Shown: positions 22,227 through 51,429 of the stretch, in pieces
How the letters are laid out: each line of letters starts with the position of its first letter
Position numbering within the stretch: the first letter of the stretch is position 1
Source: Chitinophagaceae bacterium
GTDB taxonomy: Bacteria; Bacteroidota; Bacteroidia; Chitinophagales; Chitinophagaceae
Assembly: GCA_017853575.1 (NCBI GenBank)
Contig: JAFMJI010000004.1
Coordinates: forward strand, 62,001 to 126,000
Length of the DNA: 64,000 nt
Reading direction: 5' to 3'
Translations under genes and position numbers: made by a program
Notes under the pieces: generated by a model
The model's input: only the letters and a program-made list of their open reading frames with translations
Database searches by the model: none
Told to the model about the DNA's origin: nothing

Positions 22227-22300
22227 CGGGAAGTGGCGCAGCCCGGTAGCGCACTTGTATGGGGTGCAAGGGGTCGCCAGTTCGAATCTGGTCTTCCCGA
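22227..22300 (+). tRNA. tRNA-Pro (anticodon GGG)
   Basis: The 74-base cloverleaf has acceptor stem CGGGAAG/CTTCCCG with discriminator A, D arm GCGCAGCCCGGTAGCGC, and T loop TTCGAAT. The anticodon stem-loop CTTGT-ATGGGGT-GCAAG puts GGG at 22261-22263, which reads the Pro codon CCC (and CCU by wobble). G37 is present. CCA is not encoded. A terminator follows at 22307-22333. Confidence 0.95.
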
Positions 22301-22306
22301 CTGAAT

Positions 22307-22407: not shown

Positions 22408-23808
22408 ATGAAAAAGAACAATCAATCTTCAAGGAGAAATTTTCTACATCAAATTGGTGCAACAAGTTTGGTTGCTGCCTTTGCCCCACTCAGCACACTC
22501 GAAGCTCAAGAAAAAGCTGAAGAGAGAATTCTGAGATATGACAGAAAGATATCTGTTGGAGATAAAATCAGATTAGGTGTAATTGGTTTTGGTGTACAAG
22601 GTCATGGTGATCTGAAAACTGCCCTACAGGTTCCGGGTGTTGAACTTGCAGGAATCTGTGATTTGTACACAGGTCGTTTGCAAAATGCAAAAGAAATGTA
22701 TGGAAATGATCTTTTCACTACCAGAGATTATAGAGAATTATTAAATAGAAAAGATATTGATGCAGTTATTATTGCAACGCATGATGTATGGCATTCAAAA
22801 ATGACCATTGATGCATTGTCGATGGGCAAACATGTGTATATCGAGAAACCAATGGTGTATAAAATTAAAGAAGGCTATGATGTTATTGCTGCCCAAAATA
22901 AATATGGAAAAGTATTACAAGTTGGTAGTCAACGTGTAAGTAGCATTGGACTTGCTAAGGCAAAAGAATTGTTGGCAGCTGGTGAGATTGGAAAACTTAA
23001 CATGGTGAATGCTGTATACGACAGACAAAGTTCAATTGGCGCATGGGAATATACCATTCCAAAGGATGCAGATGCAAGTACAACTGATTGGGATCGATTT
23101 ATTCAGGTAACTGATAAAATGCCCTATGATTCAAAAAAATTCTTCTGGTGGAGAGCTTTTAAAGAGGTTGGTACAGGTGTTGCCGGTGATCTTTTTATTC
23201 ATTTGTTGAGTGGAACACATCTTATCACCAATTCAAAAGGACCAGAAACAATCTATAGTACTGGTCAATTCAGCCATTGGTTGGATGGAAGAAATATGCC
23301 TGATGTAATGTCTGGTGTAATGCAATATCCTGATTGTCCTGAGCATCCCGCATTTCAATTAACGTTGCAAGTAAATTTCATCAGTGGTACAGGCGGACAG
23401 GAAATTACCCGATTTGTGGGTTCTGAAGGTGTGATGGAAGTAAAAGGAAACAACATAACAATTAAACACAGCATATTGCCAGAAGCTCCTGGATTTGGTG
23501 GTTATGATTCAGTATTTACTTTCTCAAAAAGTATGCAAGATGAAATGCAAAGAGAATATGACGCTAAATGGACTGAAGCACAGAAGAAGCGAAGAGTAAA
23601 AGAAGATGTTACCTTCAAGCCGCCAGTTGGATACAGCGAACATCTCGATCATTTCACAAATTTCTTTGATGCTATCAGAACTGGAAAGAAAGTGGTTGAA
23701 GATGCTGAATTTGGTTTCAGGGCCGCTGCTCCTGCATTGTCTTGTAACGACAGTTATTTCAGTAAGAAAATTGTGAAGTGGGATCCTGTGAATATGAAAT
23801 TAAAATAA
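22408..23808 (+). CDS. Tat-exported Gfo/Idh/MocA family oxidoreductase
   Basis: The 466-residue protein begins with a twin-arginine signal (SRRNFLHQIG, residues 8-17) and a hydrophobic stretch ending in LEAQ. The NAD(P)-binding Rossmann motif GFGVQGHG is near residue 60, and the family EKP motif is in YIEKPMV. Such Tat-type family members probably act on sugars or glycan parts with a tightly bound cofactor; the substrate is unknown. It stands alone after the tRNA and converges on the UbiD gene with a four-base gap. Confidence 0.85.
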   Translation: MKKNNQSSRRNFLHQIGATSLVAAFAPLSTLEAQEKAEERILRYDRKISVGDKIRLGVIGFGVQGHGDLKTALQVPGVELAGICDLYTGRLQNAKEMYGNDLFTTRDYRELLNRKDIDAVIIATHDVWHSKMTIDALSMGKHVYIEKPMVYKIKEGYDVIAAQNKYGKVLQVGSQRVSSIGLAKAKELLAAGEIGKLNMVNAVYDRQSSIGAWEYTIPKDADASTTDWDRFIQVTDKMPYDSKKFFWWRAFKEVGTGVAGDLFIHLLSGTHLITNSKGPETIYSTGQFSHWLDGRNMPDVMSGVMQYPDCPEHPAFQLTLQVNFISGTGGQEITRFVGSEGVMEVKGNNITIKHSILPEAPGFGGYDSVFTFSKSMQDEMQREYDAKWTEAQKKRRVKEDVTFKPPVGYSEHLDHFTNFFDAIRTGKKVVEDAEFGFRAAAPALSCNDSYFSKKIVKWDPVNMKLK

Positions 23809-38257: not shown

Positions 38258-39616
38258 ATGAAAAAAATTCTCTTTTCAGTTTTTTCCATGGTTACATTGA
38301 TGATTGTAAATGGACAAAACCTAACAAAAGTTAAGGAAGCACTGGTTGCAAAAAAATACTCAGATGCCAATACACAATTGGATGAGTTCATTAACAATCC
38401 AAAATATCAGAAGAACGCAGAGTTGTATTATCTGAAAGCAAAAATGTATGCTGAAATTGCTGCAGATAGCAATTTGTCTAAATCTTATCCAAATGTTATT
38501 GAAAACTCATTGGATAACTTTAAAAAGGCATTTACAACTGATAAAGACAAGTTTACCATGTTTGTTACACTGGAAGGAGCACAAGCATTGTATAATATAT
38601 ATGCAGTTCCTTATAACCGTGGAGTAAAAGAGCTGGATGCAAAAGAATATCAGAAATCATTGAAATCTTTACAGCAGGCAGATGCTTCAGGCAGATTTAT
38701 ATTTGAAAGGGGACTCGGATTGGCAGCCATCGACACCAACCTTACCTTTTATACAGGATATGCTGCATTGTTGGCTGGACAAGAAGATTTGGCAGCTGGA
38801 TATTTCACAAAACTGGCAGATTTGAATATTGCTGATAAAGGATTTGAGGATGTATACAAAAACCTCATGATTTATCATTTCAATAAAAGCAACATCGCCG
38901 AATTTGAAAAAGCAAGAGCAAAAGGTGCTAAGTCATATCCAAAAGAAGAATATTTCACCTATGATGAAGTGATGTTCATCAACGATATGAAAGACAAGGC
39001 TGAAAGATTAAAAAGAATTGAAGCCAAAGTTGCCAGTGATCCCAAGAATTTAGAGGCCATGTCAATCCTTGCAGAAGTATTGTTTGATCGATTGTTTAAT
39101 CAGGATAATCCTTACTACAATACAGATGCAGAATATGATGCAGCTGAAAATCGCTTGATAGAACTCTATACAAGAATGGCAGAAGTAAGTCCTGCTGATG
39201 GCTTAATGTTTTTAAATGCAGGTGTTGTATACGTAAACAGAGGTTTCGAGCTCAACAACAAGATTTCTGATATCAATGATAAAATCAAAAAATTCAATGA
39301 AACTCAGAAGCCTGATAAAACAGGAAAAATTCCACCGCCACCCAAAGAGCTAACAACCCAAAGAGACGATTACAGAGCAAAGCAATTGATATCTTATGAT
39401 AAAGGGTTGCCTTTTCTTTTGAAAGCACAACCAATTATGGAAAAGAAGCTCTCTGAAAAGAACATCGCTCAGGCATATAAGAAATTGGTTAGCTTATTAA
39501 TTGATGTATATTCTTCAAAACGTCAATTATCAAAAGTTCCTGCTGATAAGGCAAAATATGAAGCTGAGGAGACCAAGTGGAACAAAGAATATGATCGTGT
39601 AAGTAACATCCATTAG
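38258..39616 (+). CDS. Secreted TPR-repeat protein of unknown function
   Basis: The 452-residue protein has a signal peptide (LFSVFSMVTLMIVNGQ) and several TPR-like helix pairs (e.g. ALVAKKYSDANTQLDEFI, KNLEAMSILAEVLFDR). A charged low-complexity linker (KKFNETQKPDKTGKIPPPPKELT) lies in the last third. Such proteins act as periplasmic scaffolds. I do not recognise a named family. It follows gyrA and ends in a terminator-like hairpin at 39623-39655. Confidence 0.8.
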   Translation: MKKILFSVFSMVTLMIVNGQNLTKVKEALVAKKYSDANTQLDEFINNPKYQKNAELYYLKAKMYAEIAADSNLSKSYPNVIENSLDNFKKAFTTDKDKFTMFVTLEGAQALYNIYAVPYNRGVKELDAKEYQKSLKSLQQADASGRFIFERGLGLAAIDTNLTFYTGYAALLAGQEDLAAGYFTKLADLNIADKGFEDVYKNLMIYHFNKSNIAEFEKARAKGAKSYPKEEYFTYDEVMFINDMKDKAERLKRIEAKVASDPKNLEAMSILAEVLFDRLFNQDNPYYNTDAEYDAAENRLIELYTRMAEVSPADGLMFLNAGVVYVNRGFELNNKISDINDKIKKFNETQKPDKTGKIPPPPKELTTQRDDYRAKQLISYDKGLPFLLKAQPIMEKKLSEKNIAQAYKKLVSLLIDVYSSKRQLSKVPADKAKYEAEETKWNKEYDRVSNIH

Positions 39617-39622
39617 AATATT

Positions 39623-39655
39623 AATAAACCTCATTTAAGCGATGGGGTTTATTTT
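39623..39655 (+). terminator. Terminator after the TPR gene
   Basis: AATAAACCTCAT and ATGGGGTTTATT form a 12-bp stem with one G-T wobble and a seven-base loop, followed by a short T run. Confidence 0.65.
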
Positions 39656-39749
39656 GAATATTTATACTTAACATAATATAAATTATAAGTAATAGTTGTG
39701 ATTTCAGGAATCGCATATTATATAGTATATTGAATATCAATTCATTTTC
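39656..39749 (+). promoter_or_regulatory. AT-rich leader of the glycan/cytochrome operon with a small stem-loop
   Basis: Positions 39697-39715 form a 7-bp stem (TGTGATT/AATCGCA, one G-T pair) with loop TCAGG, about 35 bases upstream of the ATG. No TAnnTTTG element is visible, so the operon promoter is undefined. A dedicated regulator site is possible. Confidence 0.3.
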
Positions 39750-40763
39750 ATGGAACGTAGATCATTTATAAGAAACGGAATTATTGCAGGAACATCAATA
39801 TCCAGCTATGATTACAAGCCTTTAGAGAATATTTCTGCTACAAAACCCATCATGGTTTCTACCTGGGATTTTGGGAAATACGCCAATACTGAAGGATGGA
39901 AAATCTTGTCAGCTAACGGACATGCTCTGGATGCAATTGAACAGGCTGCCAGGGTTACTGAAGCTGATGAATCAAACAAGACGGTAGGATATGGCGGTTA
40001 TCCAGATAGAGACGGACGTGTAACCCTAGACGCCTGTATTATGGATGAATCCGGCAATTGTGGCTCTGTCATGGCAATGGAGCATATAAAACACCCCATT
40101 TCTGTTGCCAGAAAAGTCATGGAAAAGACCCCACATATTATATTGGTTGGTGATGGCGCCTTACAATTTGCCCTTGATAATGGTTTTCAAAAGGAAAATC
40201 TCTTGACTCCAGATAGTAAAAAAGCATGGGAAGATTGGTTGAAAAATTCAAAATACGAACCAGTAATTAATATTGAAAATCAGTTATTTAAAAAGCAAGA
40301 CAATAGTTTTGCTTTAGGTGGAATCAACAATCATGATACCATTGGATTACTTGCTTTGGATGCTGCCGGTAAATTAAGTGGCGGTTGCACAACCAGCGGG
40401 ATGGCTTTTAAAATGCATGGAAGGGTTGGCGACTCCCCTGTCATAGGTGCTGGACTGTTTGTGGATGGTGAAGTAGGTGCAGCTACCGCTACGGGTGTTG
40501 GCGAAGAGGTAATTCGCTGTGTTGGTTCACACAGTGTGGTTGAATACATGAGAAATGGACTTTCACCTAAAGAAGCCTGTAAAAAAGTAGTTGACCGGAT
40601 TGCAAAACGTGACTTGGAAAAAGCGAAAAAAATGCAAATTGGATTTTTGGCATTGGACAAATCCGGAAATGTTGGTGCGTATGCTTTACAAAAAGGATTT
40701 TCATATGCGCTTAAATCTGCTTCAGAAGAAATAGTCATTGCTGTAGAAAGTTATTTTGATTGA
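39750..40763 (+). CDS. Glycosylasparaginase (N4-(beta-GlcNAc)-L-asparaginase), Tat-signal-like
   Basis: The 337-residue Ntn hydrolase starts MERRSFIRNG, a twin-arginine-type signal. The autoproteolysis site is NNHDTIG, where Thr becomes the catalytic residue, and the substrate loop is GCTTSGMAFKMHGRVGDSP. The family cleaves the GlcNAc-Asn bond of N-glycoproteins, or acts as isoaspartyl peptidase in relatives. The presence of CGSVMAMEHIKHP and GGYPDRDGRVTLDAC supports the glycosylasparaginase branch. It opens the five-gene operon. Confidence 0.87.
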   Translation: MERRSFIRNGIIAGTSISSYDYKPLENISATKPIMVSTWDFGKYANTEGWKILSANGHALDAIEQAARVTEADESNKTVGYGGYPDRDGRVTLDACIMDESGNCGSVMAMEHIKHPISVARKVMEKTPHIILVGDGALQFALDNGFQKENLLTPDSKKAWEDWLKNSKYEPVINIENQLFKKQDNSFALGGINNHDTIGLLALDAAGKLSGGCTTSGMAFKMHGRVGDSPVIGAGLFVDGEVGAATATGVGEEVIRCVGSHSVVEYMRNGLSPKEACKKVVDRIAKRDLEKAKKMQIGFLALDKSGNVGAYALQKGFSYALKSASEEIVIAVESYFD

Positions 40764-40764
40764 T

Positions 40765-41496
40765 ATGTCATTTGAACTAGAAGTCATAGCATTTGATTTG
40801 GCATCTTGCTTTATTGCAGAACAAGGTGGTGCACATCGGATTGAACTCTGTGCAAATCCACAGGAAGGGGGCACTACCCCATCAGCTGGCATGATTAAAC
40901 TTGCCAGAAAAGCAACTAAACTTCAACTCTTCCCTATCATTCGCCCTCGAGGTGGTGATTTTCTTTACGACAATACTGAATTGATGTGCATGATTGAGGA
41001 CATCAAAATATGCAAAGAAGAAGGTTGTGATGGAGTAGTTATTGGTATGTTGAAAGCGGATGGTTCAATCGATACCGATGCCTGCCATGAGATGATTCAT
41101 CATGCAAATGGTATGGATATCACATTTCATCGTGCATTTGACCGTGTTAAAGACCAAGAATCTGCTTTGAGCGATGTTATTCAATTGGGTTGCAAAAGAA
41201 TACTTACTTCAGGAGGATTCCCAACTGCATTAGAGGGTAAAGAACAACTTAAAAAATTGGTTGAAATGGCCCAAAATGAAATCACGATTATGCTTGGATC
41301 AGGAGTTAAATCTTCCAACATTAAATTATTGAGAGACTACACAGGGGCCAAGGCATTTCATGCATCTGCAAGAACAAAATTCAGTTCAAACATGAAGTAC
41401 CATGCTGAAACCATGCATGAAAACCTTGAAAAAATCTCACTAGATCAATCAGAGCTTCGGCTGTTAAGGAAAACATTGGATGGGATTTTCTCTTAA
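40765..41496 (+). CDS. cutC: CutC family TIM-barrel protein
   Basis: The 243-residue protein has the family signature ELEVIAFDLASCFIAEQGGAHRIELCANPQEGGTTPS and PIIRPRGGDFLY. HRAFDRVKDQESAL and LTSGGFPTALEG also match CutC. CutC is called a copper homeostasis protein, but its biochemical function is unsettled. ATG 40765 is chosen over a TTG at 40756; one base then separates it from the glycosylasparaginase stop. It is 12 bases before the DUF1549/1553 gene. Confidence 0.88.
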   Translation: MSFELEVIAFDLASCFIAEQGGAHRIELCANPQEGGTTPSAGMIKLARKATKLQLFPIIRPRGGDFLYDNTELMCMIEDIKICKEEGCDGVVIGMLKADGSIDTDACHEMIHHANGMDITFHRAFDRVKDQESALSDVIQLGCKRILTSGGFPTALEGKEQLKKLVEMAQNEITIMLGSGVKSSNIKLLRDYTGAKAFHASARTKFSSNMKYHAETMHENLEKISLDQSELRLLRKTLDGIFS

Positions 41497-41508
41497 TTTT
41501 AAGCAACG

Positions 41509-44259
41509 ATGCCTGCTTTTCTCAAATCAACCGGTTTTATCTCAATCTCCATTTGCGTTTTTCTTTTACTCGGATACTTCGTATTTATCAGGGAAGAAAA
41601 AGTTGACTACAACGCAGATGTAAAGCCTATTATCAATCAAAAATGTATTTCCTGTCATGGTGGTGTGAAGAAAAAAGCAGGATTTAGTCTACTTTTTGAA
41701 GAGGAGGCACTGGCAGCGACAGAATCTGGCAAACCTGCAATTATACCAGGAGACGCCAAAAACAGTGAAATGATTAGGCGTCTATATTCAAAAGATCCAG
41801 ATGAAAGAATGCCTTATCATGAAGCTGAATTATCTGATCATAAAAAACGTATTCTTGAAAAATGGATTGATCAAGGAGCTCATTTTTCTACACATTGGGC
41901 ATATCAGCCGGTAAACCTCACTACGCTACCATCAAAATCAATATTTGATCTTTTTAAAAAAGAAAGTGGAACTGAAATTGATCGCTTTATTGATCAGAAA
42001 TTGAAATCAATCGGGTTAGAAAGATCTCTTGAAGCTGACAAGCGTACTTTATTGAGACGGGTATCTCTTGATTTAATCGGAATACCAGCTCCGCAACATG
42101 TACAACTTGCATTTTTAAAGGATTCATCCAAAGAATCATATGAAAGATTAGTAGATACACTTTTGTCTTTGCCTGCATACGGTGAACGATGGACAGCCAT
42201 GTGGATGGATTTGGCAAGATATGCAGATAGCAAGGGATACGAGAGAGATTATATCAGATCAATATGGAGATACCGTGATTGGTTGATCAATGCTTTCAAT
42301 CAAGATAAACCATATAATCAATTTATTACAGAACAATTGGCTGGTGACTTGTTGCCAGATCCAACTGATGATCAATTTCTGGCAACCGCCTTTCATCGAA
42401 ATACCATGAACAATGATGAAGGAGGTACCGACAATGAAGAATTTAGAACAGCTGCCATTCTTGACAGAGTCAATACCACATGGGAGGCACTTCTAGGAAC
42501 AAGTTTTGCATGTGTTCAATGTCACAGCCATCCTTATGATCCTTTTAAACATGATGAGTATTACAAATTCATGGCTTTTTTTAATAATACAAGAGACGAG
42601 GATACTTACGACGAATATCCTTTACTGAGAGAATTCAGAAACAATAGCATTCATCAATATGATTCGGTCTTGAATTGGTTGCAAACTTCATCAGATGCTA
42701 ATGCTAAACAATTTTACAAAACGCTTATCAAAACTGGTCAACAATGCATCAATAGCTTAATTGCTGATTCTTTAAACAATGCAGCACTGGAAGACACCAA
42801 GTTTTTGCGGATGAGAAAAAATGCATGGGCAAGAATCAAACAAATTGGACTTTCCAATAAACAGACCCTGTTGATCAGATACAGATCTCCTGTTGATCGT
42901 GGAGTACTTACCTTTTTTGCAGATTCATCCAAAACAAAAGCATTTGCGGTTGCTAATATCAATAAAACAAAGGATGGATGGAATATTATTTCAATTCCAA
43001 TTTCTCAAAAATTGGATGGCAGACACGATATTGTTTTTCATTTTGATAGTCCACAGCTCAAAAACGAAAATGAAAACGGTATTGTATTCGACTGGCTTTG
43101 TTTCGCACCATCCTTTCCTGGTTCAGCAAATAAAGACTTTAAAGCCTATCAAACTACTTTTTTACAATTACTGAATAAACCAGATGCAGAGCTCACTCCC
43201 ATTATGATGGACAATCCATCTGAACTAAAAAGAAATACCTATGTATTTGAGCGTGGAAATTGGTTGTTGAAAACAAAACAAGTTGAACCTGATATACCCT
43301 CCATTTTTAATCCACAAAAAAATAAATATGCTAACAGATTGGATCTTGCCAAATGGATGACAGATAAAAGCAATCCACTCACTTCCAGAACCATGGTGAA
43401 TCGATTATGGGAACAATTATTCGGACAGGGATTGGTGGAAACCCTGGAAGATTTTGGATCACAAGGTGCTGCACCCACGCATCAATCCCTGCTTGATTAT
43501 CTATCCTACCAGTTTATGAACCAAGATCAATGGAGCATCAAAAAATTATTGAAAAGAATGGTAATGTCGGCAACTTATCGCCAATCATCTGTGAGTGATA
43601 AGAAATCGCAAGAATTAGATCCATTAAACAAATATTATTCCCATGCACCACGCGTAAGACTAACAGCAGAACAAATCAGAGACCAAGCACTTGTCATTTG
43701 TGGTGCCATAAACAATAAAATGTTTGGTCCGAGTGTAATGCCTTTTCAACCGGATGGAATATGGGCATCCCCGTATGATGGCAGAAAATGGGAACAAAGC
43801 AAGGGAGATGAAATATACCGGAGAGCTATTTATACTTATTGGAAGAGAACAGGTCCCTATCCTACACAGATTAATTTTGATGGAACCGCCAGAGAAGTTT
43901 GTACAAGTCGGCGTATTAGAACCAATACACCGCTTCAGGCACTTAATTTATTAAATGATTCAACATATTGGGATCTATCCGTAAAGCTTGCAAAGAAAAT
44001 TATGGATGAGAAGCCAGCTTCGATTGAATTAAGTATATCGAAGGCATATGAAGCTGCAACAGGCAAAATCCCCAATGCAGCGAAAATACAAACGTTGAAA
44101 ATATTGTACATAGCATCTTATAAAAACATATCTAGCCAACCTGAAAAAACTTCACAACTGATTGCCGATTCCACCATCAAAAAAAATAAACAGTTGGCTG
44201 CTATGGCAATCACCACAAGTGCCATATTAAATCTTGATGAAGTGATTACAAAAAACTAA
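41509..44259 (+). CDS. Planctomycete-type cytochrome (PSCyt1)-DUF1549-DUF1553 protein with CBM6-like insert
   Basis: The 916-residue protein has an N-terminal membrane anchor (about 11-27), a heme-binding CISCH at 46-50 with possible axial Met101, and then DUF1549. A second CxxCH (CVQCH, 335-339) lies within DUF1549. Residues about 425-535 resemble CBM6, with an aromatic patch and [13 protein letters not shown]1553 follows to the end ([42 protein letters not shown]). Its role is unknown; electron transfer coupled to a glycan substrate is inferred. DUF1501 follows by five bases. Confidence 0.85.
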
Positions 44260-44264
44260 TCTCC

Positions 44265-45752
44265 ATGAAATCGAATAATATTCATCAGGAAGCATATCGC
44301 CACAACCTCTCCTATAATACAAGAAGACATTTTCTTCGAGAGTGCAGAACAGGAATGGGAATGTTGGCATTGGGATCTTTGTTAGATGGATGTAATTTTT
44401 TCAGCAACGCTGAAAATGAACTTCTTGCTAAAAATCCATTGGCAGCAAAGCCTTCTCCCCTTTTAGGAAAAGCAAAATCAGTCATATTCTTGCACATGGC
44501 TGGTGCGCCCTCACAGCTTGAGATGTTTGACTATAAACCTGAATTGCAAAAAATGGATGGCATGGATTGCCCAGATTCATTTATTCAGGGTAAAAAATTT
44601 GCATTTATACGTGGGGTACCAAAACTTCTTGGACCTCAGGCAAGTTTTAAACAATATGGAGAAAGTGGTATATGGCTTTCAAACCACATGCAACATTTTC
44701 AATCTGTGGTAGATGAAGTTTCACTGTTAAAGGCTGTTTCAACTGATCAATTTAATCATGCTCCTGCACAATTGTTGATGCATTGCGGAACGCCTAGACT
44801 AGGTCGTCCTAGCATGGGTTCATGGGTTACATATGGATTGGGTTCTGAAAATTCAAATTTGCCTGGATTTGTTGTACTTACTTCTGGAGGAAGAAATCCA
44901 GATGCTGGAAAAAGTGTTTGGGGAAGTGGGTTCCTTCCATCTGTTTACCAAGGTGTTCAATGTCGATCTGAAGGCGATCCGGTGTTGTTTTTGAAAGATC
45001 CAAATGGCTATGACAGAGACTTGCGAAAATCTTCCATTGAAACCATCAACAAAGTAAATGAACTGTCATACGAAGAGTACAAGGATCCAGAGATTTTATC
45101 GCGTATTTCTCAATATGAGATGGCATTCAAAATGCAGATTGCTGTTCCTGATGTAATGAACATCAGTGATGAGCCAGCATACATCCATGAATTGTATGGA
45201 ACAAAACCTGGGAAAGAATCATTTGCAAACAATGTATTGCTCGCGAGAAAATTGGTTGAAAAGGGAGTTCGATTTGTACAACTCTTTGATTGGGGATGGG
45301 ACAGTCATGGTACTGATCCAGGTACAGCGTTGGATCAGGGTTTTGTGGAAAAATGTAGAGAGAATGATCAGGCAGTCAGTGCTCTTTTGATCGATTTAAA
45401 ACAACGTGGACTTCTCGATGAAACATTGGTGGTATGGGGTGGAGAATTTGGCAGAACTCCTATGCAGGAAAATAGAGATGGAAAACAAAACTCTTTCAAA
45501 GGTAGAGATCACCATTCAGACGCATTCTGTATGTGGATGGCAGGTGCTGGCATTAAAAAAGGGTTTACTTATGGAGAAACGGATCCCATTGGATATAATC
45601 CAATAGAAGGAAAAGTAACCGTGCATGATATTCAAGCAACCATTCTGCAACAACTTGGTTTTGATCATACTGCATTTACTTATCCATTTCAGGGTAGAAA
45701 TTTCAGACTAACAGATGTATTCGGAAAAGTAATCGACCCAATCATATCATAG
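44265..45752 (+). CDS. DUF1501 (sulfatase-like fold) protein with Tat-type signal
   Basis: The 495-residue protein begins with TRRHFLREC (residues 24-32), twin-arginine-like, and a lipobox-like LLDGC. The alkaline-phosphatase-type core has GEFGRTP and GRDHHSDAF near the C-terminus, as in DUF1501. DUF1501 genes typically pair with DUF1549/DUF1553 genes in Planctomycetes; no substrate is established. One base separates it from the next gene. Whether it is Tat-exported or a lipoprotein is uncertain. Confidence 0.85.
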   Translation: MKSNNIHQEAYRHNLSYNTRRHFLRECRTGMGMLALGSLLDGCNFFSNAENELLAKNPLAAKPSPLLGKAKSVIFLHMAGAPSQLEMFDYKPELQKMDGMDCPDSFIQGKKFAFIRGVPKLLGPQASFKQYGESGIWLSNHMQHFQSVVDEVSLLKAVSTDQFNHAPAQLLMHCGTPRLGRPSMGSWVTYGLGSENSNLPGFVVLTSGGRNPDAGKSVWGSGFLPSVYQGVQCRSEGDPVLFLKDPNGYDRDLRKSSIETINKVNELSYEEYKDPEILSRISQYEMAFKMQIAVPDVMNISDEPAYIHELYGTKPGKESFANNVLLARKLVEKGVRFVQLFDWGWDSHGTDPGTALDQGFVEKCRENDQAVSALLIDLKQRGLLDETLVVWGGEFGRTPMQENRDGKQNSFKGRDHHSDAFCMWMAGAGIKKGFTYGETDPIGYNPIEGKVTVHDIQATILQQLGFDHTAFTYPFQGRNFRLTDVFGKVIDPIIS

Positions 45753-45753
45753 A

Positions 45754-47079
45754 ATGAAAATATTCATTGGACATCTGCATCCCCTACTCGTTCACCTGCC
45801 CATTGGAATATGGATTATCTATTTATTGATTGAGTTTTTAAAAACAAGGAATCAATACAAACAGATTGATTTTATCATCAAGATTGTCTTTTATACTGGA
45901 GCTATATCTGCAGTTGCATCAATCATAACTGGACTTATCAATGCCAATCAGCAAGGATATCCAACAAATGATGTATTCAATCATCAATGGATGGCAATAG
46001 GTACAAGCGTTTTGTTTTTGATATTTTTTTATATACGGAACCATTTTACTCTAAGAACAGTTTTAGTGAATTCTTTTTTAATCCTATTATTCATGTTGAT
46101 TTCGATAACAGGACATTTAGGTGGTATTCTAACCCATGGTGAAGATTATTTCAGCATTCAAAATGATGAAAAAAAAGTGATCAAACCATTGGCAATTCAA
46201 CATATTAATGAGGCCCTCATTTATAAAGACCTGGTTCAATATATTTTCGATAAAAATTGCTTATCCTGCCATGGTCAAAACAAACAAAAAGGAAATTTAA
46301 GGCTCGACACCTATGATCACATCATGTCTGGTGGAAAATCTGGGAAAGTTATCCAACTCAGCAACCTAGAAAAAAGTGAGTTGATTAAACGAATATTACT
46401 AGATCAATCTGATGAAAAACACATGCCTCCCAAAGACAACATGCAATTAGAAACATTTGAAATTCAAATGTTGAAATGGTGGGTTTCAAATGGAGCTGAA
46501 ACTTCTTCCAAAGTAAAAGATATATCAGCTGACACGCTCATGATCCGCTCAATCAAACAATTTCATGATGCATTTTCACAAATCAATGACGTAGCATCCA
46601 TCAAACGACCCATGTTGGACGAAATTGAAGCAAATACATTGAAAAAAATTCAATCTCTTGGCTGGTCTTTAATTCCATTGAGCAAAGATGATCATTATTA
46701 TAGGGCTGTTGCCTTTAATGTAGAGGATTCCATTGGAAATGCATTAAAAACGTTGAGTGAAATTTCAAAGAATATCATTGAACTCAAGTTGTCTTTCTCA
46801 AATCTAAATGATAAAGACGCAATACAATTATCAGCATTCAGATCTTTGGAAAAACTTTGGCTTGATCATACTTTGATTACTTCAAAAGGATTGGAAAACT
46901 TAAAACAGATAAACAACCTCAATTATTTAAATCTTTTTGCTTGTTCAATCAATGAAAGGGATTTGTCAAATTATTCTGATCGCCGAGATTTAAAATTGGT
47001 TTATCCCAACATGAAGGATACAGCTTGGAAAATAGCAGACACCACTGAATTGACTGCAATTAAGAAACAATTGCCCTGA
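45754..47079 (+). CDS. Membrane cytochrome: DUF2231-like helices, PSCyt1 heme domain and leucine-rich repeats
   Basis: The 441-residue protein begins with four transmembrane helices (about 10-29, 42-62, 78-97, 104-122). These resemble DUF2231. A heme domain follows with CLSCH at 169-173 and KHMPP (Met223) as probable axial ligand. The C-terminal part has leucine-rich repeats (LKLSFSNLNDKD, LEKLWLDHTLI, NLNYLNLFACSI). The layout suggests a membrane electron-acceptor partner of the upstream genes. It overlaps the convergent kinase gene by 20 bases. Confidence 0.83.
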   Translation: MKIFIGHLHPLLVHLPIGIWIIYLLIEFLKTRNQYKQIDFIIKIVFYTGAISAVASIITGLINANQQGYPTNDVFNHQWMAIGTSVLFLIFFYIRNHFTLRTVLVNSFLILLFMLISITGHLGGILTHGEDYFSIQNDEKKVIKPLAIQHINEALIYKDLVQYIFDKNCLSCHGQNKQKGNLRLDTYDHIMSGGKSGKVIQLSNLEKSELIKRILLDQSDEKHMPPKDNMQLETFEIQMLKWWVSNGAETSSKVKDISADTLMIRSIKQFHDAFSQINDVASIKRPMLDEIEANTLKKIQSLGWSLIPLSKDDHYYRAVAFNVEDSIGNALKTLSEISKNIIELKLSFSNLNDKDAIQLSAFRSLEKLWLDHTLITSKGLENLKQINNLNYLNLFACSINERDLSNYSDRRDLKLVYPNMKDTAWKIADTTELTAIKKQLP

Positions 47080-48091
47080 AACTCTTCAACAATTGAAGTT
47101 GATTGATGGTACGATGTAAATTGTTTTCTGGATTATTGATATGATAATAGATGTCATCATTCAAGTAATCTGTAAAAAATCTTAGTGCTTGCATGTAGAT
47201 CATAAAATCACCGGCATATTGGATATGCTTCAATTCGTCTTCAGTCATTTGATCAGACATTTTTTCTTTGTACCCTTCCACAATTGCCAAATAAAAATCC
47301 CTTCTGGCTTCCACAAGATTTATATTCGGTTCTTCTTCATTGGCTGGAGACAAATAGGTTCTGAACATATCACCCAAATCGCTTATAAAGTATCCAGGCA
47401 TGACAGTATCTAAGTCTATTACACAAATTCCTTTATTGGCATGATTAAAAAGCACATTGCTAATTTTGGTATCATGATGTGTGACACGTAATTTGAATGA
47501 GCCGGATGCAAGAATTTTTTCATAAAAGGCAACAATATCATATTCATTTTCCATTTGGGAAATGATTGATTGTGTTTGGTGAATTCTCTCTTGATTGCCA
47601 TTTATCAATGCATCTCTGAATTGTTTCCATCTAAATGTGAGGTTATGAAAATCAACAATGGAAGGTTTTAATTGAGTCACATCAAAATCCTTGAAAGATG
47701 CTGTAAAATTTCCAAATTGCTTTGCCGCTTCATAAGCTTGATCTGGTTCATCACAAACATTGATTGAATGTGAACCTTCTACAAAAGGAATGAGACGATA
47801 GTAAATGCCGTTTTTTAAATGAAAATCTTTATTTGTCTTTGTTTTTAATGGGGTGGGTAAAATAGTGGTAGAATATGTATTGTTTAGCCAGCTTGATAGT
47901 AAATTGATATTGTCGGCAATATGTTCAGGCCATTTGAAAACAGCATTGTTTAATTCTTGCAGTATGAAAGCGTTGTTATTATCTTTTGTGACAACAAAAG
48001 TTTTGTGGATAAGTCCAGATCCAAATGGTTCTACTTTGTATTCACCTGCGTTGTTTATGAAAGCATCTAAAAGATCCTGAAAATTTTCCAT
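47060..48091 (-). CDS. APH-fold phosphotransferase, N-acetylhexosamine 1-kinase (NahK)-like
   Basis: The 343-residue protein has the aminoglycoside-phosphotransferase fold: FGSGLIHKTFVV with a P-loop-like start, the catalytic HHDTKISNVLF (HxDxxxxN) and VIDLDTVMPG (DxD). It is closer to NahK-type sugar kinases than to resistance enzymes. The substrate is inferred from the neighbouring glycosylasparaginase, and could be GlcNAc. serA lies one base upstream, so the two are probably co-transcribed. Confidence 0.8.
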   Translation of the reverse strand: MENFQDLLDAFINNAGEYKVEPFGSGLIHKTFVVTKDNNNAFILQELNNAVFKWPEHIADNINLLSSWLNNTYSTTILPTPLKTKTNKDFHLKNGIYYRLIPFVEGSHSINVCDEPDQAYEAAKQFGNFTASFKDFDVTQLKPSIVDFHNLTFRWKQFRDALINGNQERIHQTQSIISQMENEYDIVAFYEKILASGSFKLRVTHHDTKISNVLFNHANKGICVIDLDTVMPGYFISDLGDMFRTYLSPANEEEPNINLVEARRDFYLAIVEGYKEKMSDQMTEDELKHIQYAGDFMIYMQALRFFTDYLNDDIYYHINNPENNLHRTINQLQLLKSFRAIVS

Positions 48092-48092
48092 T

Positions 48093-49331
48093 TTAATAGA
48101 GCAGTCTTACTTTAAGAGCGCCTTTCACTTTTTTCAACAACTCAACTGCGCTTTTAGAAAGTTTGGTGTCAATATCAAGTACAACATACCCTATATCATC
48201 ATTTGTTTTCAAATTTTGCCCCAATACATTGATTTTGTTATCGGATAGACTGCTGTTGATCTCTGAAAGAACTCCCGGTATATTATTGTGTATATGTAGA
48301 ATGCGATGGGTTTTTTCCTGTTGAGGCAGACTCAATTCAGGAACAGTATGAGATCCAGTGGTGGCACCGGTTTCAAGGTAATTCAACATTTTGGTGCTTA
48401 CATCTTCACCAATATTCAACTGAGCTTCTTCAGTTGAACCACCAATATGAGGTGTTAATAATACATTGGGTAACCCTTGCAGAGGACTTTCAAAGCGATC
48501 GCCATTCTTTTCAGGTTCCCAAGGAAATACATCAACACCAGCGCCGGATAAATGTCCAGATACCAAGGCTTGTTTCAATGCATTCAGGTCGACCACTTCT
48601 CCCCTAGCATAATTCAAAAGAATGGACCCTTTTTTAAAATACTTCAACAATGATTTATTGATCAAATTTTTGGTTTGACTGGTTTCAGGTATATGAAGTG
48701 TAATAATATCTGATTTAGAGACCAATTCTTTTAATGATTTTTTAGAAATGGCATTCCCAAGAGGAAGTTTTGTTATCGCATCATAGAAAAGAATTTTCAT
48801 CCCCATCGCCTCAGCAAGGATACTTACTTGAGATCCAATATTTCCATATCCAATAATGCCGAGTGTTTTTCCTCTCAATTCAAAACTGCCTTTTGCATCT
48901 TTATTCCAAATGCCCTCATGAGCAGCTTTGTTTTTATCCAATATTTTCCTAATCAACATTACAGAAGCGCCTATTATCAATTCTGCTACTGATCTGGTAT
49001 TGCTATATGGTGCATTGAAAACAACAACTCCTTTTTTTCTGGCAGCATGTAGGTTAACTTGGTTGGTACCGATGCAAAAACAGCCAATCGCTTGAAGTTT
49101 CTTTGCATGTTGAAGAACTCTTTCAGTAACCATGGTTTTTGATCTGATGCCTATAAGGTGGGCATCTTTGACTTCCTGAATGAGTTGATCTTCAGGCAAA
49201 GCACCTGAAAACTTTTTTATATCAACATAGCCTGCATCTTTGAAAATCTTAATGGCAGTATCACTGATATTTTCAAAAAATACAATTTTGATTTTGTCTT
49301 TCGGATAACTTGTGTTTGTTGAATTACTCAT
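48093..49331 (-). CDS. serA: D-3-phosphoglycerate dehydrogenase with ACT domain
   Basis: The 412-residue protein has the NAD motif GYGNIGSQ, catalytic Arg in NYARGEVVD, and Glu/His in VFPWEPE and TPHIGGST. A C-terminal ACT domain (about 338-412, HNNIPGVLSEINSSL) can bind serine as feedback inhibitor. It makes the first step of serine synthesis. The ATG at 49331 has an ordinary context. It faces the serine hydrolase gene across a 66-base gap. Confidence 0.93.
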   Translation of the reverse strand: MSNSTNTSYPKDKIKIVFFENISDTAIKIFKDAGYVDIKKFSGALPEDQLIQEVKDAHLIGIRSKTMVTERVLQHAKKLQAIGCFCIGTNQVNLHAARKKGVVVFNAPYSNTRSVAELIIGASVMLIRKILDKNKAAHEGIWNKDAKGSFELRGKTLGIIGYGNIGSQVSILAEAMGMKILFYDAITKLPLGNAISKKSLKELVSKSDIITLHIPETSQTKNLINKSLLKYFKKGSILLNYARGEVVDLNALKQALVSGHLSGAGVDVFPWEPEKNGDRFESPLQGLPNVLLTPHIGGSTEEAQLNIGEDVSTKMLNYLETGATTGSHTVPELSLPQQEKTHRILHIHNNIPGVLSEINSSLSDNKINVLGQNLKTNDDIGYVVLDIDTKLSKSAVELLKKVKGALKVRLLY

Positions 49332-49397
49332 TAGAAAAATCTGTAATTTTATGCGAATTTAACAACTTCTAACCCCTATTCCAATTAAAGACCTGTG

Positions 49398-50570
49398 ATG
49401 TTGAAAATCAAAGTATTCGTTGGATTGTTTTTCCTTTTTTCAAGCCTCTTCTATTTTGTTGAAAATTATTTACTTGGTAATCCCGCGTCAGAAAAATCAG
49501 CTATTTCCCGCATTGAGATACCGATCACCACTTCTCTTAGCAGCAACGAGGAGCTCTTGAGAAAATCTTCTTCAAAATTCTTTGAAGAGAGTCTTGTTAG
49601 AACCAGGTTCAACGGTGCCATGCTTGTGGCACACAATGGAAAGATTGTATTTGAAGAATATGAGGGACTCAAGGAGGTGTTAAAAGGAGATCCTATTGAT
49701 TCATCCACATCATTTCACCTGGCTTCTGTTTCAAAGACATTTACAGCCATGGCCGTATTGAAATTATGGGAGGATGGTAAACTACAGATTGATGATAAAG
49801 TTGAAAAATATATTTCAGGATTTCCTTTTAATCAGATTACAGTTCGAAACTTATTGAGCCACCGATCTGGACTTCCTAACTATGTATATTTTGCAGAGCA
49901 AGTTGGATGGAACACCAGAAATTATTTACATAACGATGATATGCTAAAGTTGTTGTTAAAAAATAGGTCAAGATTAAGAATTGGAAGACCGAATGCATAT
50001 TTCGACTACTGCAATACCAATTATGCTTTGTTAGCCATCATCATCGAAAAGGTCTCAGGAAAAAGCTTTGCTTCATACATGGACCAGACTTTCTTTACTC
50101 CCATAGGGATGACCAATACTTTTGTATTTGATATCAATAAAACAGAAAAAGTTCTTCCATCATTCAAATACAACAACAGGAAAGAACCGATGATGTTTCT
50201 TGATGCGGTATACGGTGACAAGAACATCTACAGTACAGCCCGCGATATGCTTAAATGGGACATTGCTTTGAACAGTGGAAAACTATTTAAACAGGAGACC
50301 CTCAATGAGGCATTCAGGGGTTACAGCTATGAAAGAAAAGGTGTAAAAAATTATGGGCTGGGATGGAGACTCTATGAACTGCCTACTGGAAAGAAAATTG
50401 TTTACCACAACGGATGGTGGCATGGGAATAATACTGTGTTCAGTAAGTTGATGCAAGATTCTACCACGATCATAGTATTGGGAAATAAATTCAACAGAAA
50501 CATTTATCAGGCCAAAAGGATTGCAGGAATTTTCCCAGGATATGGAATTCAATCTGATGATGATGAATGA
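49398..50570 (+). CDS. Serine hydrolase of the beta-lactamase/class C penicillin-binding family
   Basis: The 390-residue protein has an N-terminal membrane/signal segment (IKVFVGLFFLFSSLFYF). The catalytic SxxK is SVSK, YxN is YCN in DYCNTNY, and the late HxG motif is HNGWWHG instead of KTG. These are features of esterases and D-amino acid peptidases of this family rather than of resistance beta-lactamases. ATG 49398 is chosen over GTG 49395. Its end overlaps the start of nnrD. Confidence 0.85.
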   Translation: MLKIKVFVGLFFLFSSLFYFVENYLLGNPASEKSAISRIEIPITTSLSSNEELLRKSSSKFFEESLVRTRFNGAMLVAHNGKIVFEEYEGLKEVLKGDPIDSSTSFHLASVSKTFTAMAVLKLWEDGKLQIDDKVEKYISGFPFNQITVRNLLSHRSGLPNYVYFAEQVGWNTRNYLHNDDMLKLLLKNRSRLRIGRPNAYFDYCNTNYALLAIIIEKVSGKSFASYMDQTFFTPIGMTNTFVFDINKTEKVLPSFKYNNRKEPMMFLDAVYGDKNIYSTARDMLKWDIALNSGKLFKQETLNEAFRGYSYERKGVKNYGLGWRLYELPTGKKIVYHNGWWHGNNTVFSKLMQDSTTIIVLGNKFNRNIYQAKRIAGIFPGYGIQSDDDE

Positions 50571-51429
50571 TATCCCTCAACATCTAAGAGACTTAAACAG
50601 GGTTCATGTTTTTACTGAATCAACGATTGAAGTTAAAAGAAGGATCAAATCATTTGATGAATTTGCACACAAAGGAACAAGAGGACATGCTGCAATCATA
50701 GCAGGATCAGAGGGTATGATGGGTGCAGCTATCCTTGCAACTTCTGCCTGTATGAGATCTGGAACAGGCAAAACAACTTCCTTCGTGCCTGGCTCTTGCT
50801 TCAATTTAATACATCAATCAATACCTGAAGCATTGGTAAAATCATCAGATTCAGTACCCGAAGCCTTTCAAGAATTTCAATCAATTGCCATTGGTCCGGG
50901 TTTAGGAATATCCCAGCATTCAAAAACCTTGCTTGAATCTGCGCTTAACTCCAATAAACCTTTGATAATTGATGCTGATGGAATTAACATCCTCTCTAAA
51001 AATCCAGCACTTAAAAATAACCTACCCAAAGATGTATTACTTACGCCACATCATGGCGAATGGGAAAGAATGTTCTTTGCATGTGACAATGATACTTTAA
51101 AAATTAAAACTTCAATAGAATATTGTAATAATTTGAATATCAATATGATACTCAAAGGACATTATTCTATTTTGATTACACCCAATCGTTTTTTTATAAA
51201 TGGAACTGGCAACATGGGCATGGCAAAAGCAGGCAGTGGGGATGTGTTAACGGGAATATTGGTGTCTTTAATGGCTCAGGGGTATTCTGTAGAAGATGCT
51301 GGAATAATTGGCATGTACGTTCATGGTTTAGCTGGCGATTTTGCCAGAGTTAACCTTGGACATGATTATATGACTGCAACTGACATAATTCATTATCTAT
51401 CAGCCGCTTTTAGATCTATTCGCAACTAG
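50563..51429 (+). CDS. nnrD: ADP-dependent NAD(P)H-hydrate dehydratase
   Basis: The 288-residue YjeF C-terminal (carbohydrate-kinase-like) domain has HKGTRGHAAIIAGSEGMMGAA at the N-terminus and KAGSGDVLTGILVSLMAQG with the catalytic Asp near the end. It repairs hydrated NAD(P)H. The epimerase domain NnrE, usually fused or adjacent, is absent here. The start is one of three consecutive ATGs (50557, 50560, 50563) overlapping the hydrolase stop; 50563 is taken. Confidence 0.88.
   Translation: MNDIPQHLRDLNRVHVFTESTIEVKRRIKSFDEFAHKGTRGHAAIIAGSEGMMGAAILATSACMRSGTGKTTSFVPGSCFNLIHQSIPEALVKSSDSVPEAFQEFQSIAIGPGLGISQHSKTLLESALNSNKPLIIDADGINILSKNPALKNNLPKDVLLTPHHGEWERMFFACDNDTLKIKTSIEYCNNLNINMILKGHYSILITPNRFFINGTGNMGMAKAGSGDVLTGILVSLMAQGYSVEDAGIIGMYVHGLAGDFARVNLGHDYMTATDIIHYLSAAFRSIRN

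Follow-up and report, generated by a model that had tools for sequence, protein, structure and literature searches.

Genes encoding PSCyt, DUF1549, DUF1553 and DUF1501 proteins are numerous in Planctomycetes and Verrucomicrobia, with no assigned function (He et al., 2017; PMC5615132). These sets share with the locus described here the PSCyt1-PSCyt2-PSD1 architecture, conserved neighbour families (DUF1501 and DUF1552 are mentioned), optional carbohydrate-binding domains and a proposed carbohydrate role. Unlike them, our set lies in Bacteroidota, is joined in one genus to genes for a glycosylasparaginase (GA) and a CutC-family protein, carries a CBM6-like domain that is missed by Pfam and has a variable slot before its DUF2231-PSCyt1 gene. 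The proteobacterial DUF1501-DUF1800-chitin synthase operons (PMC5122149) also place a Tat-exported DUF1501 protein beside a sugar epimerase and a partner of its own, with a link to a GlcNAc polymer; there, however, the partner is DUF1800 and the context is biosynthetic, whereas here the partner is a predicted di-heme protein. The LacABC periplasmic sugar 3-dehydrogenase, found with a DUF1080 hydrolase (PMC9007349), would have periplasmic sugar chemistry in common with our locus, and exported Gfo/Idh and TIM-barrel proteins likewise accompany loci of the wider family. As for GA, the known systems, namely the Elizabethkingia enzyme and AsnA2 of Lactobacillus casei (PMC6960285), come without cytochromes, whereas the GA gene studied here is joined to cytochrome genes. 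AsnA2 follows the same GlcNAc-Asn salvage logic, with GlcNAc-using enzymes, but is intracellular, whereas our GA has a Tat export motif.

The DNA analysed (the window) is a stretch of 64,000 nt from Chitinophagaceae bacterium GCA_017853575.1 (contig JAFMJI010000004.1, positions 62,001-126,000). Five intact, co-directional and tightly spaced open reading frames occupy positions 39750-47079 of its plus strand, with intergenic gaps of 1, 12, 5 and 1 bases. A first-pass annotation had described five same-strand genes with gaps of 1-12 bases, two Tat-type signals and three CxxCH motifs, and the reading frames and Pfam domains agree with it on each count: the Tat signals belong to GA (RRSFIRNG) and DUF1501 (TRRHFLREC), and the CxxCH motifs lie at residues 46 and 335 of the DUF1549/DUF1553 protein and 169 of the DUF2231 protein. 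Every Pfam assignment named for the five genes exceeds its curated cut-off. The five genes are probably co-transcribed as a single operon. We searched for promoters and terminators and found no signal above shuffled sequences; a Bacteroidota-type -33/-7 pattern has no match near the run, and an Rfam search returned nothing above the gathering score. Pfam scanning of ten genes (38258-51429) revealed no SusC or SusD homologue among them, so that the locus is not a SusC/SusD-type PUL. A NahK-like (N-acetylhexosamine 1-kinase) gene (47060-48091, minus strand; phmmer 7e-48 to 4wh1 NahK) is convergent with the run and is kept as its neighbour across the genus, but lies outside the operon. This kinase, the CBM6-like domain and a sixth gene present in many relatives were missing from the first-pass annotation.

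We tentatively read the run, at a little short of an even chance, as a lineage-specific operon in which a GA-CutC salvage pair and an envelope cytochrome-linked carbohydrate redox module have been joined and are co-regulated. That the module contacts sugars, the direction of its electrons, its catalytic protein and an N-glycan-derived substrate are all points that we infer.

The glycosylasparaginase-CutC pair

The first gene (39750-40763; PF01112, E = 3.6e-71) encodes a glycosylasparaginase, N4-(beta-N-acetylglucosaminyl)-L-asparaginase, with an RRSF motif (39756-39767) that predicts export by the Tat pathway. Homology spans the full Ntn-hydrolase domain, and the protein is closer to glycosylasparaginases, the nearest solved relative being the Elizabethkingia meningoseptica enzyme (PDB entries 3ljq and 1p4k; phmmer, 7e-118), than to the best L-asparaginase/isoaspartyl peptidase (1e-33). 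Residues W11, T152, R180, D183, T203 and G204 of the Elizabethkingia enzyme, which we take to be the autocatalytic threonine and the substrate residues, are matched by W39, T197, R225, D228, T248 and G249 of GA, and these are invariant in nine orthologues from the genus. The codon of the autocatalytic Thr197, as placed by the alignment, is at 40338-40340. The full-length match, the retained catalytic residues and the Tat motif support the exported glycosylasparaginase that the first-pass annotation had put forward. Such an enzyme would act in the envelope, cleaving GlcNAc-Asn from N-glycoproteins to yield GlcNAc and Asp.

The second gene (40765-41496) encodes a CutC-family TIM-barrel protein (PF03932, E = 3.7e-69; human CutC, PDB entry 3iwp, E = 3.9e-53); its mechanically called start is a TTG at 40756, and the likely start is the ATG at 40765. 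The protein has no transmembrane segment, no Tat motif and no signal peptide, and is predicted to be located in the cytoplasm, where it would act within GlcNAc-Asn salvage. CutC lies within 10 kb of GA in 68 of 80 named Bacteroidota GA loci and is directly adjacent in 57. In the examined loci of other genera, the pair is accompanied by GH92, GH20, MFS with ROK kinase, and NagB-like or NahK-like genes; the window genome itself encodes two GH20. The GA-CutC pair, widespread in Bacteroidota, very likely serves GlcNAc-Asn salvage.

The predicted di-heme protein and its CBM6-like domain

The third gene (41509-44259) encodes a protein of 916 residues (PSD) with the order PSCyt1, PSCyt2/DUF1549, CBM6-like domain and PSD1/DUF1553; its Pfam domain order and the adjacent DUF1501 gene place it in the PSCyt1-DUF1549-DUF1553/DUF1501 set. 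A transmembrane segment at residue 9 predicts that it is anchored by its N-terminus. The first predicted heme-attachment site, CISCH (residues 46-50; 41644-41658), has C46, C49 and H50 invariant in 91 of 91 sequences, as is Met101 (41809-41811), its candidate axial ligand; the second, CVQCH (residues 335-339; 42511-42525), is invariant to the same extent (91/91) and is followed by His341 and Asp344, also invariant (91/91). Exactly two CxxCH motifs are found in each of 98 full-length DUF1549/DUF1553 homologues, and this two-motif rule is new, as are the previously unannotated CBM6-like domain and, described below, the modelled fold of DUF1501 and the variable gene slot. The window genome encodes a cytochrome c assembly protein (CcsA/CcmF-type) and TatC.

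In the structure model, which is of high confidence (pLDDT 91.2, pTM 0.91), a beta-sandwich of residues about 412-535 (42742-43113) sits between DUF1549 and DUF1553. Foldseek and VIA matches of the model are limited to residues 368-535, and the sandwich superposes on 8hcj_C (VIA Z 17.1, r.m.s.d. 1.9 Å over 122 residues) and on the CBM6 2v4v (Z 16.6), which points to a CBM6 fold. The PF03422 (CBM_6) profile has no match to the window fragment at E <= 1 and reaches 1.5e-4 and 0.003 in two relatives (L061 and L179, respectively), both under the curated cut-off; we therefore call the domain CBM6-like and not CBM6. In other DUF1549/DUF1553 subtypes, a laminin-G lectin or else a short linker occupies this position. 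In a profile search for solved relatives of the whole protein, only the cytochrome domain found matches (FoxE and hydrazine synthase alpha). The CBM6-like domain is a putative sugar binder, and its presence strengthens the case for a carbohydrate role of the cytochrome protein. In the operon reading that we favour, this domain would hold the sugar, the anchored di-heme protein would work with the Tat-exported DUF1501 protein and electrons would exit through the N-terminal heme, of His/Met type.

Unlike LacABC, the five-gene run contains no FAD (GMC) subunit and no Gluconate_2-dh3, and Pfam detects no flavin or quinone sugar dehydrogenase within it, which counts against the operon reading; one set of GMC, Gluconate_2-dh3 and exported Gfo/Idh genes lies elsewhere in the window genome. 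It is conceivable, although unlikely, that PSCyt1-DUF1549-lectin-DUF1553 with DUF1501 constitutes an undescribed flavin-independent heme-c carbohydrate oxidase of the bacterial envelope with an exchangeable lectin domain and downstream enzyme, dedicated here to the sugars released by GA. Electrons could also run outwards, the cytochromes reducing an oxidative polysaccharide enzyme. The model for this is Cbp2D, a DUF1587-containing protein of Cellvibrio japonicus whose c-type cytochrome domain, CjX183, supplies LPMOs with electrons (PMC8981238). Both systems would tie a c-type cytochrome to polysaccharide oxidation, but the window genome has no LPMO_10 (PF03067), which speaks against LPMO reduction here; outward flow is very improbable.

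The DUF1501 partner, the variable slot and the DUF2231 cytochrome

The fourth gene (44265-45752; PF07394, E = 1.5e-144) encodes the DUF1501 protein, with a motif predicting Tat export at 44322-44333; a Tat-like motif is present in 107 of 109 homologues. A sequence search for solved relatives gave nothing significant. All Foldseek and VIA matches of its model belong to the alkaline phosphatase (AP) superfamily (best Z 13.3, for a model with a pLDDT of only 55), and the modelled fold is of this superfamily with an altered active site. Given this fold, the strongly conserved D346, H348, E394 and D415-H416-H417 and a locus (L181) in which three sulfatase genes immediately precede the module, DUF1501 might be the catalyst, acting on phospho- or sulfo-sugars as an AP-superfamily hydrolase or transferase, while the cytochromes would have a part in assembly, in sensing or in a redox side reaction. 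We consider this improbable. The C/S-x-P-S-R formylglycine motif of type I sulfatases is absent, sulfatases align with a C-terminal piece alone, and in the profile alignment Glu394 falls on the metal Asp, with Phe395 at the neighbouring position, and the DD pair is not evident; the model is moreover of low confidence, and both heme motifs are kept in all of the DUF1549/DUF1553 partners counted above.

The fifth gene (45754-47079) encodes a DUF2231 membrane domain (PF09990), with three transmembrane-like segments in the protein, a PSCyt1 domain (PF07635) and a leucine-rich C-terminus. DUF2231 and PSCyt1 stand above the Pfam cut-offs, but the leucine-rich repeat part proposed in the first-pass annotation amounts to a leucine-rich periodicity with no Pfam match at E <= 1e-3. 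The predicted heme site CLSCH at residue 169 (46258-46272) is absent in three loci (L042, L051 and L070), and this link is therefore dispensable, which counts against the operon reading. In the operon reading, this membrane cytochrome would pass electrons towards the respiratory chain.

Between DUF1501 and DUF2231 lies a variable slot, empty in the window (position 45753) and often occupied in relatives by a Tat TIM-barrel gene (PF01261). This gene is absent from the locus and from the whole window genome, where it has been lost, and well-supported branches force at least nine gains or losses. A candidate role for it as an essential part, through 3-keto-glycoside chemistry, was rejected here on account of its repeated loss and its absence from the window genome. 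Together with the CBM6-like domain, this exchangeable slot restricts what is worth assaying.

Distribution of the two modules and of their junction

The PSCyt1-DUF1549-DUF1553 and DUF1501 genes are a near-obligate pair: the first is followed by the second in 58 of 60 sampled loci. The module occurs in 12% of Bacteroidota genomes, often with DUF2231-PSCyt1 next after DUF1501. GA-CutC, however, lay beside the module neither in other genera, where 20 close DUF1501 homologues were checked, nor at any of the 60 sampled module loci; conversely, a DUF1549/DUF1553 gene was near GA in three of the 80 named GA loci, all three in the window's genus. The modules are thus separate in every other genus examined, and conservation of the five genes as one system across Bacteroidota is rejected. 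The comparison of gene order in related genomes that had been proposed beforehand did find it conserved within the genus, mostly with tight spacing: the order GA-CutC-PSD-DUF1501-(TIM barrel)-DUF2231 has median gaps of 1, 12, 10, 8 and 24 bases (14-25 genus loci). The CutC-DUF1549/DUF1553 junction is limited to one subclade, where it is kept in 15 of 16 loci with readable upstream DNA.

Such a distribution would also be expected if GA-CutC and DUF1549/DUF1501 were unrelated, had been joined once in the genus and were held together by descent or a shared promoter, the cytochrome module acting apart from N-glycans; this is a real possibility, though well under an even chance. It accords with the confinement of the junction to one subclade and the separation of the modules everywhere else sampled, with the predicted cytoplasmic and periplasmic locations of CutC and the module, respectively, and with members that retain the module while GA is broken by a stop (G019) or was not found (G005). 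On the other hand, the order and tight spacing recur while the DUF1549/DUF1553 protein diverges to 51-76% identity, which argues that the arrangement is more than chance. The presence of GA and DUF1501 orthologues agrees in 20 of 23 genus genomes (Fisher p 0.008, a value confounded by kinship and completeness), and the CBM6-like domain also speaks against unrelated modules. So do two separate co-locations: a Sphingobacteriales 46-32 locus (L101) has a single-direction run of DUF1501, propeller, DUF2231, heparinase II/III, GH88, sugar transporter and GA genes that extends to GH2, and in the second locus (L198) a DUF1501 set of 39% identity is convergent with CutC-GA. The window genome is small and has only two DUF1501 sets, and because one of these is joined to an enzyme of known substrate, it provides a concrete substrate hypothesis that can be tested for the PSCyt/DUF1549/DUF1553/DUF1501 proteins at large.

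A common substrate was also sought in the neighbours of 68 module loci and was rejected, a result that counts against the operon reading: these neighbours comprise 166 Pfam families with no dominant carbohydrate family, NHL accounting for 7 and sulfatase for 4 of 149.

Two modules in one run

In the window, five forward-strand genes follow one another with gaps of 1, 12, 5 and 1 bases: glycosylasparaginase (GA; 39750-40763), the TIM-barrel family protein CutC (40765-41496), the PSCyt1-DUF1549-DUF1553 di-heme protein (PSD; 41509-44259), DUF1501 (44265-45752) and DUF2231-PSCyt1 (45754-47079). This is the run that the first-pass annotation had described, and its counts of Tat-type motifs (two) and CxxCH sites (three) were recovered; for its LRR in the DUF2231-PSCyt1 protein, Leu periodicity is the sole basis. 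The genome (2.3 Mb, 99.6% complete) contains exactly two DUF1501 genes.

The 80 named GA loci come from Chitinophaga, Pedobacter, Niastella, Sphingobacterium and others. CutC is no more than 10 kb from GA in 68 of them and directly adjoins it in 57; a PSD gene is present in just three, all from the window's genus. At the loci examined, the GA–CutC neighbours include GH92, GH20, an MFS transporter with a ROK kinase and a NagB-like protein, and an APH/NahK-like kinase. PSCyt2 was found in 47 of 390 Bacteroidota genomes. DUF1501 immediately follows PSD on the same strand at 58 of 60 sampled loci (of the other two, L220 stops at a contig edge), DUF2231 is nearby in 29, and neither GA nor CutC occurs at any of the 60. 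Judged by gene order, GA–CutC and PSD–DUF1501 are two modules, not one. The earlier reading of all five genes as one system is partly supported: their order is conserved within the genus, but the two modules are separate in the other genera examined.

Origin and retention of the junction

When 46 close DUF1501 homologues were placed in a tree, all GA-adjacent members fell within one 24-member subclade of the window's genus (15 adjacent, one non-adjacent, eight unreadable), and GA adjacency was seen in 0 of 20 homologues from other genera. The joining of the two modules is thus lineage-specific and was retained afterwards. The median gaps have been kept at 1 base (GA–CutC) and 12 bases (CutC–PSD). 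The gene-order comparison proposed in the first-pass annotation, made here across Bacteroidota, showed conservation inside the genus, but no such junction in the other genera sampled; the finding as a whole is real, conserved at genus level and explained in part.

In favour of a functional junction, it is kept despite strong divergence (PSD identity 51-76%), and GA and DUF1501 co-locate twice more, with different DUF1501 subtypes. At L198 (same genus, different contig) a 39% identical DUF1501 set is convergent with CutC-GA. In Sphingobacteriales bacterium 46-32 (L101:1138-16376), DUF1501, an NHL propeller, DUF2231-PSCyt1, heparinase II/III, GH88, a sugar transporter, GA, one further gene and GH2 run in a single direction, the stretch upstream being masked. 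Of 23 genomes, 20 have both GA and the DUF1501 orthologue or neither (Fisher p 0.008), a test confounded by kinship and incomplete genomes. On the other hand, the module persists in genome G005, where GA was not found, and in G019, where GA is interrupted. In the latter (L059; G019:C183:30255-31248), a TAG stop lies inside GA, by mutation or assembly error, and the downstream module is intact.

The PSD–DUF1501 module and its variable slot

The CxxCH count is exactly two in each of the 98 full-length PSD sequences gathered. Among 91 of them, C46, C49, H50 and M101, and C335, C338, H339, H341 and D344, show no variation, suggesting an N-terminal His/Met heme of electron-transfer type and, around the second heme, a strongly conserved pocket. 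In the AlphaFold model (pLDDT 91.2, pTM 0.91), residues 412-535 fold into a sandwich resembling CBM6 (Z 17.1, rmsd 1.9 Å, 122 residues; Z 16.6 against CBM6 2v4v), which Pfam leaves unmatched in the window PSD and matches only below threshold in relatives. Other PSD subtypes have a laminin-G-type lectin or a 14-residue linker at this position. The domain is a putative sugar binder, CBM6-like by modelled fold; the sugar-contacting Asn of canonical CBM6 is seemingly not retained.

A Tat-like motif is present on 107 of 109 DUF1501 homologues. With a poor structure model (pLDDT 55), every Foldseek match below 1e-3 and every VIA match shown is an alkaline-phosphatase-superfamily enzyme (best Z 13.3). 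The sulfatase C-x-P-S-R motif is absent from DUF1501, and Glu394 aligns on the sulfatase metal Asp in a weak profile alignment; DUF1501 is thus an alkaline-phosphatase-like protein with an altered active site, and a candidate enzyme. Another DUF1501 set (L069; G020:C33:327000-346000) has neighbours that by eye are GH38-, GH92- and DUF1080-like, possibly a mannose-glycan context.

The DUF2231 heme site is gone in three loci, where shortened proteins lack CxxCH (L042:8680-9600, L051:10417-11262 and L070:7884-8867), so PSD–DUF1501 is the core of the module. The slot between DUF1501 and DUF2231 (occupied at L039:8117-9028, L179:8981-9913 and others; empty at 45753 in the window) holds a TIM-barrel gene (PF01261) in 20 close homologues of the tree set and nothing in 20, including the window, whose genome lacks this TIM barrel altogether. 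The TIM-barrel proteins carry a Tat export signal, rarely a Sec-type one. In more distant sets the slot is filled by Tat NHL propellers (L101, L205, L209, L210, L213, L234 and L237) or another propeller (L198 and L254). Slot content mostly tracks DUF1501 subtype, L251 being an exception, and the slot appears to be a place for interchangeable accessory enzymes.

Probable GlcNAc salvage and a proposed envelope redox chemistry

GA best matches Elizabethkingia glycosylasparaginase (E 7e-118, versus 1e-33 for the best L-asparaginase/isoaspartyl peptidase) and by sequence is a glycosylasparaginase. It keeps equivalents of W11, T152, R180, D183, T203 and G204, the autocatalytic Thr and substrate residues of that enzyme, and these are invariant across nine orthologues. 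GA, a convergent gene (47060-48091, reverse strand) with N-acetylhexosamine 1-kinase as its nearest match, and two GH20 genes in the genome fit GlcNAc salvage from GlcNAc-Asn, as demonstrated for AsnA2 of Lactobacillus casei (PMC6960285).

From the observed gene content, conservation, motifs and fold, we infer substrate, chemistry, electron direction and co-transcription as follows. The GA–CutC pair would most likely serve GlcNAc-Asn salvage; PSD–DUF1501–DUF2231 would most likely handle a carbohydrate in the envelope via heme redox chemistry, its electrons most likely passing to the membrane. A carbohydrate role was already proposed for PSCyt genes, their function being unassigned (He et al., 2017; PMC5615132); to this we add the junction with GA–CutC, a two-heme pattern shared by every full-length PSD sampled, the CBM6-like domain that Pfam missed, and the slot.

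The genome encodes TatC and a CcsA/CcmF-type assembly protein; LPMO_10 is absent from it. On its contig C8 (L260:1928-5867), a GMC oxidoreductase, a Tat Gluconate_2-dh3 subunit and an exported Gfo/Idh/MocA protein likely form a periplasmic sugar dehydrogenase, so flavin-dependent envelope sugar oxidation would be present in the same cell, apart from the five-gene run. In the window, a Tat-exported protein (22408-23808), by eye of the Gfo/Idh/MocA family, adjoins a tRNA-Pro gene (22227-22301).
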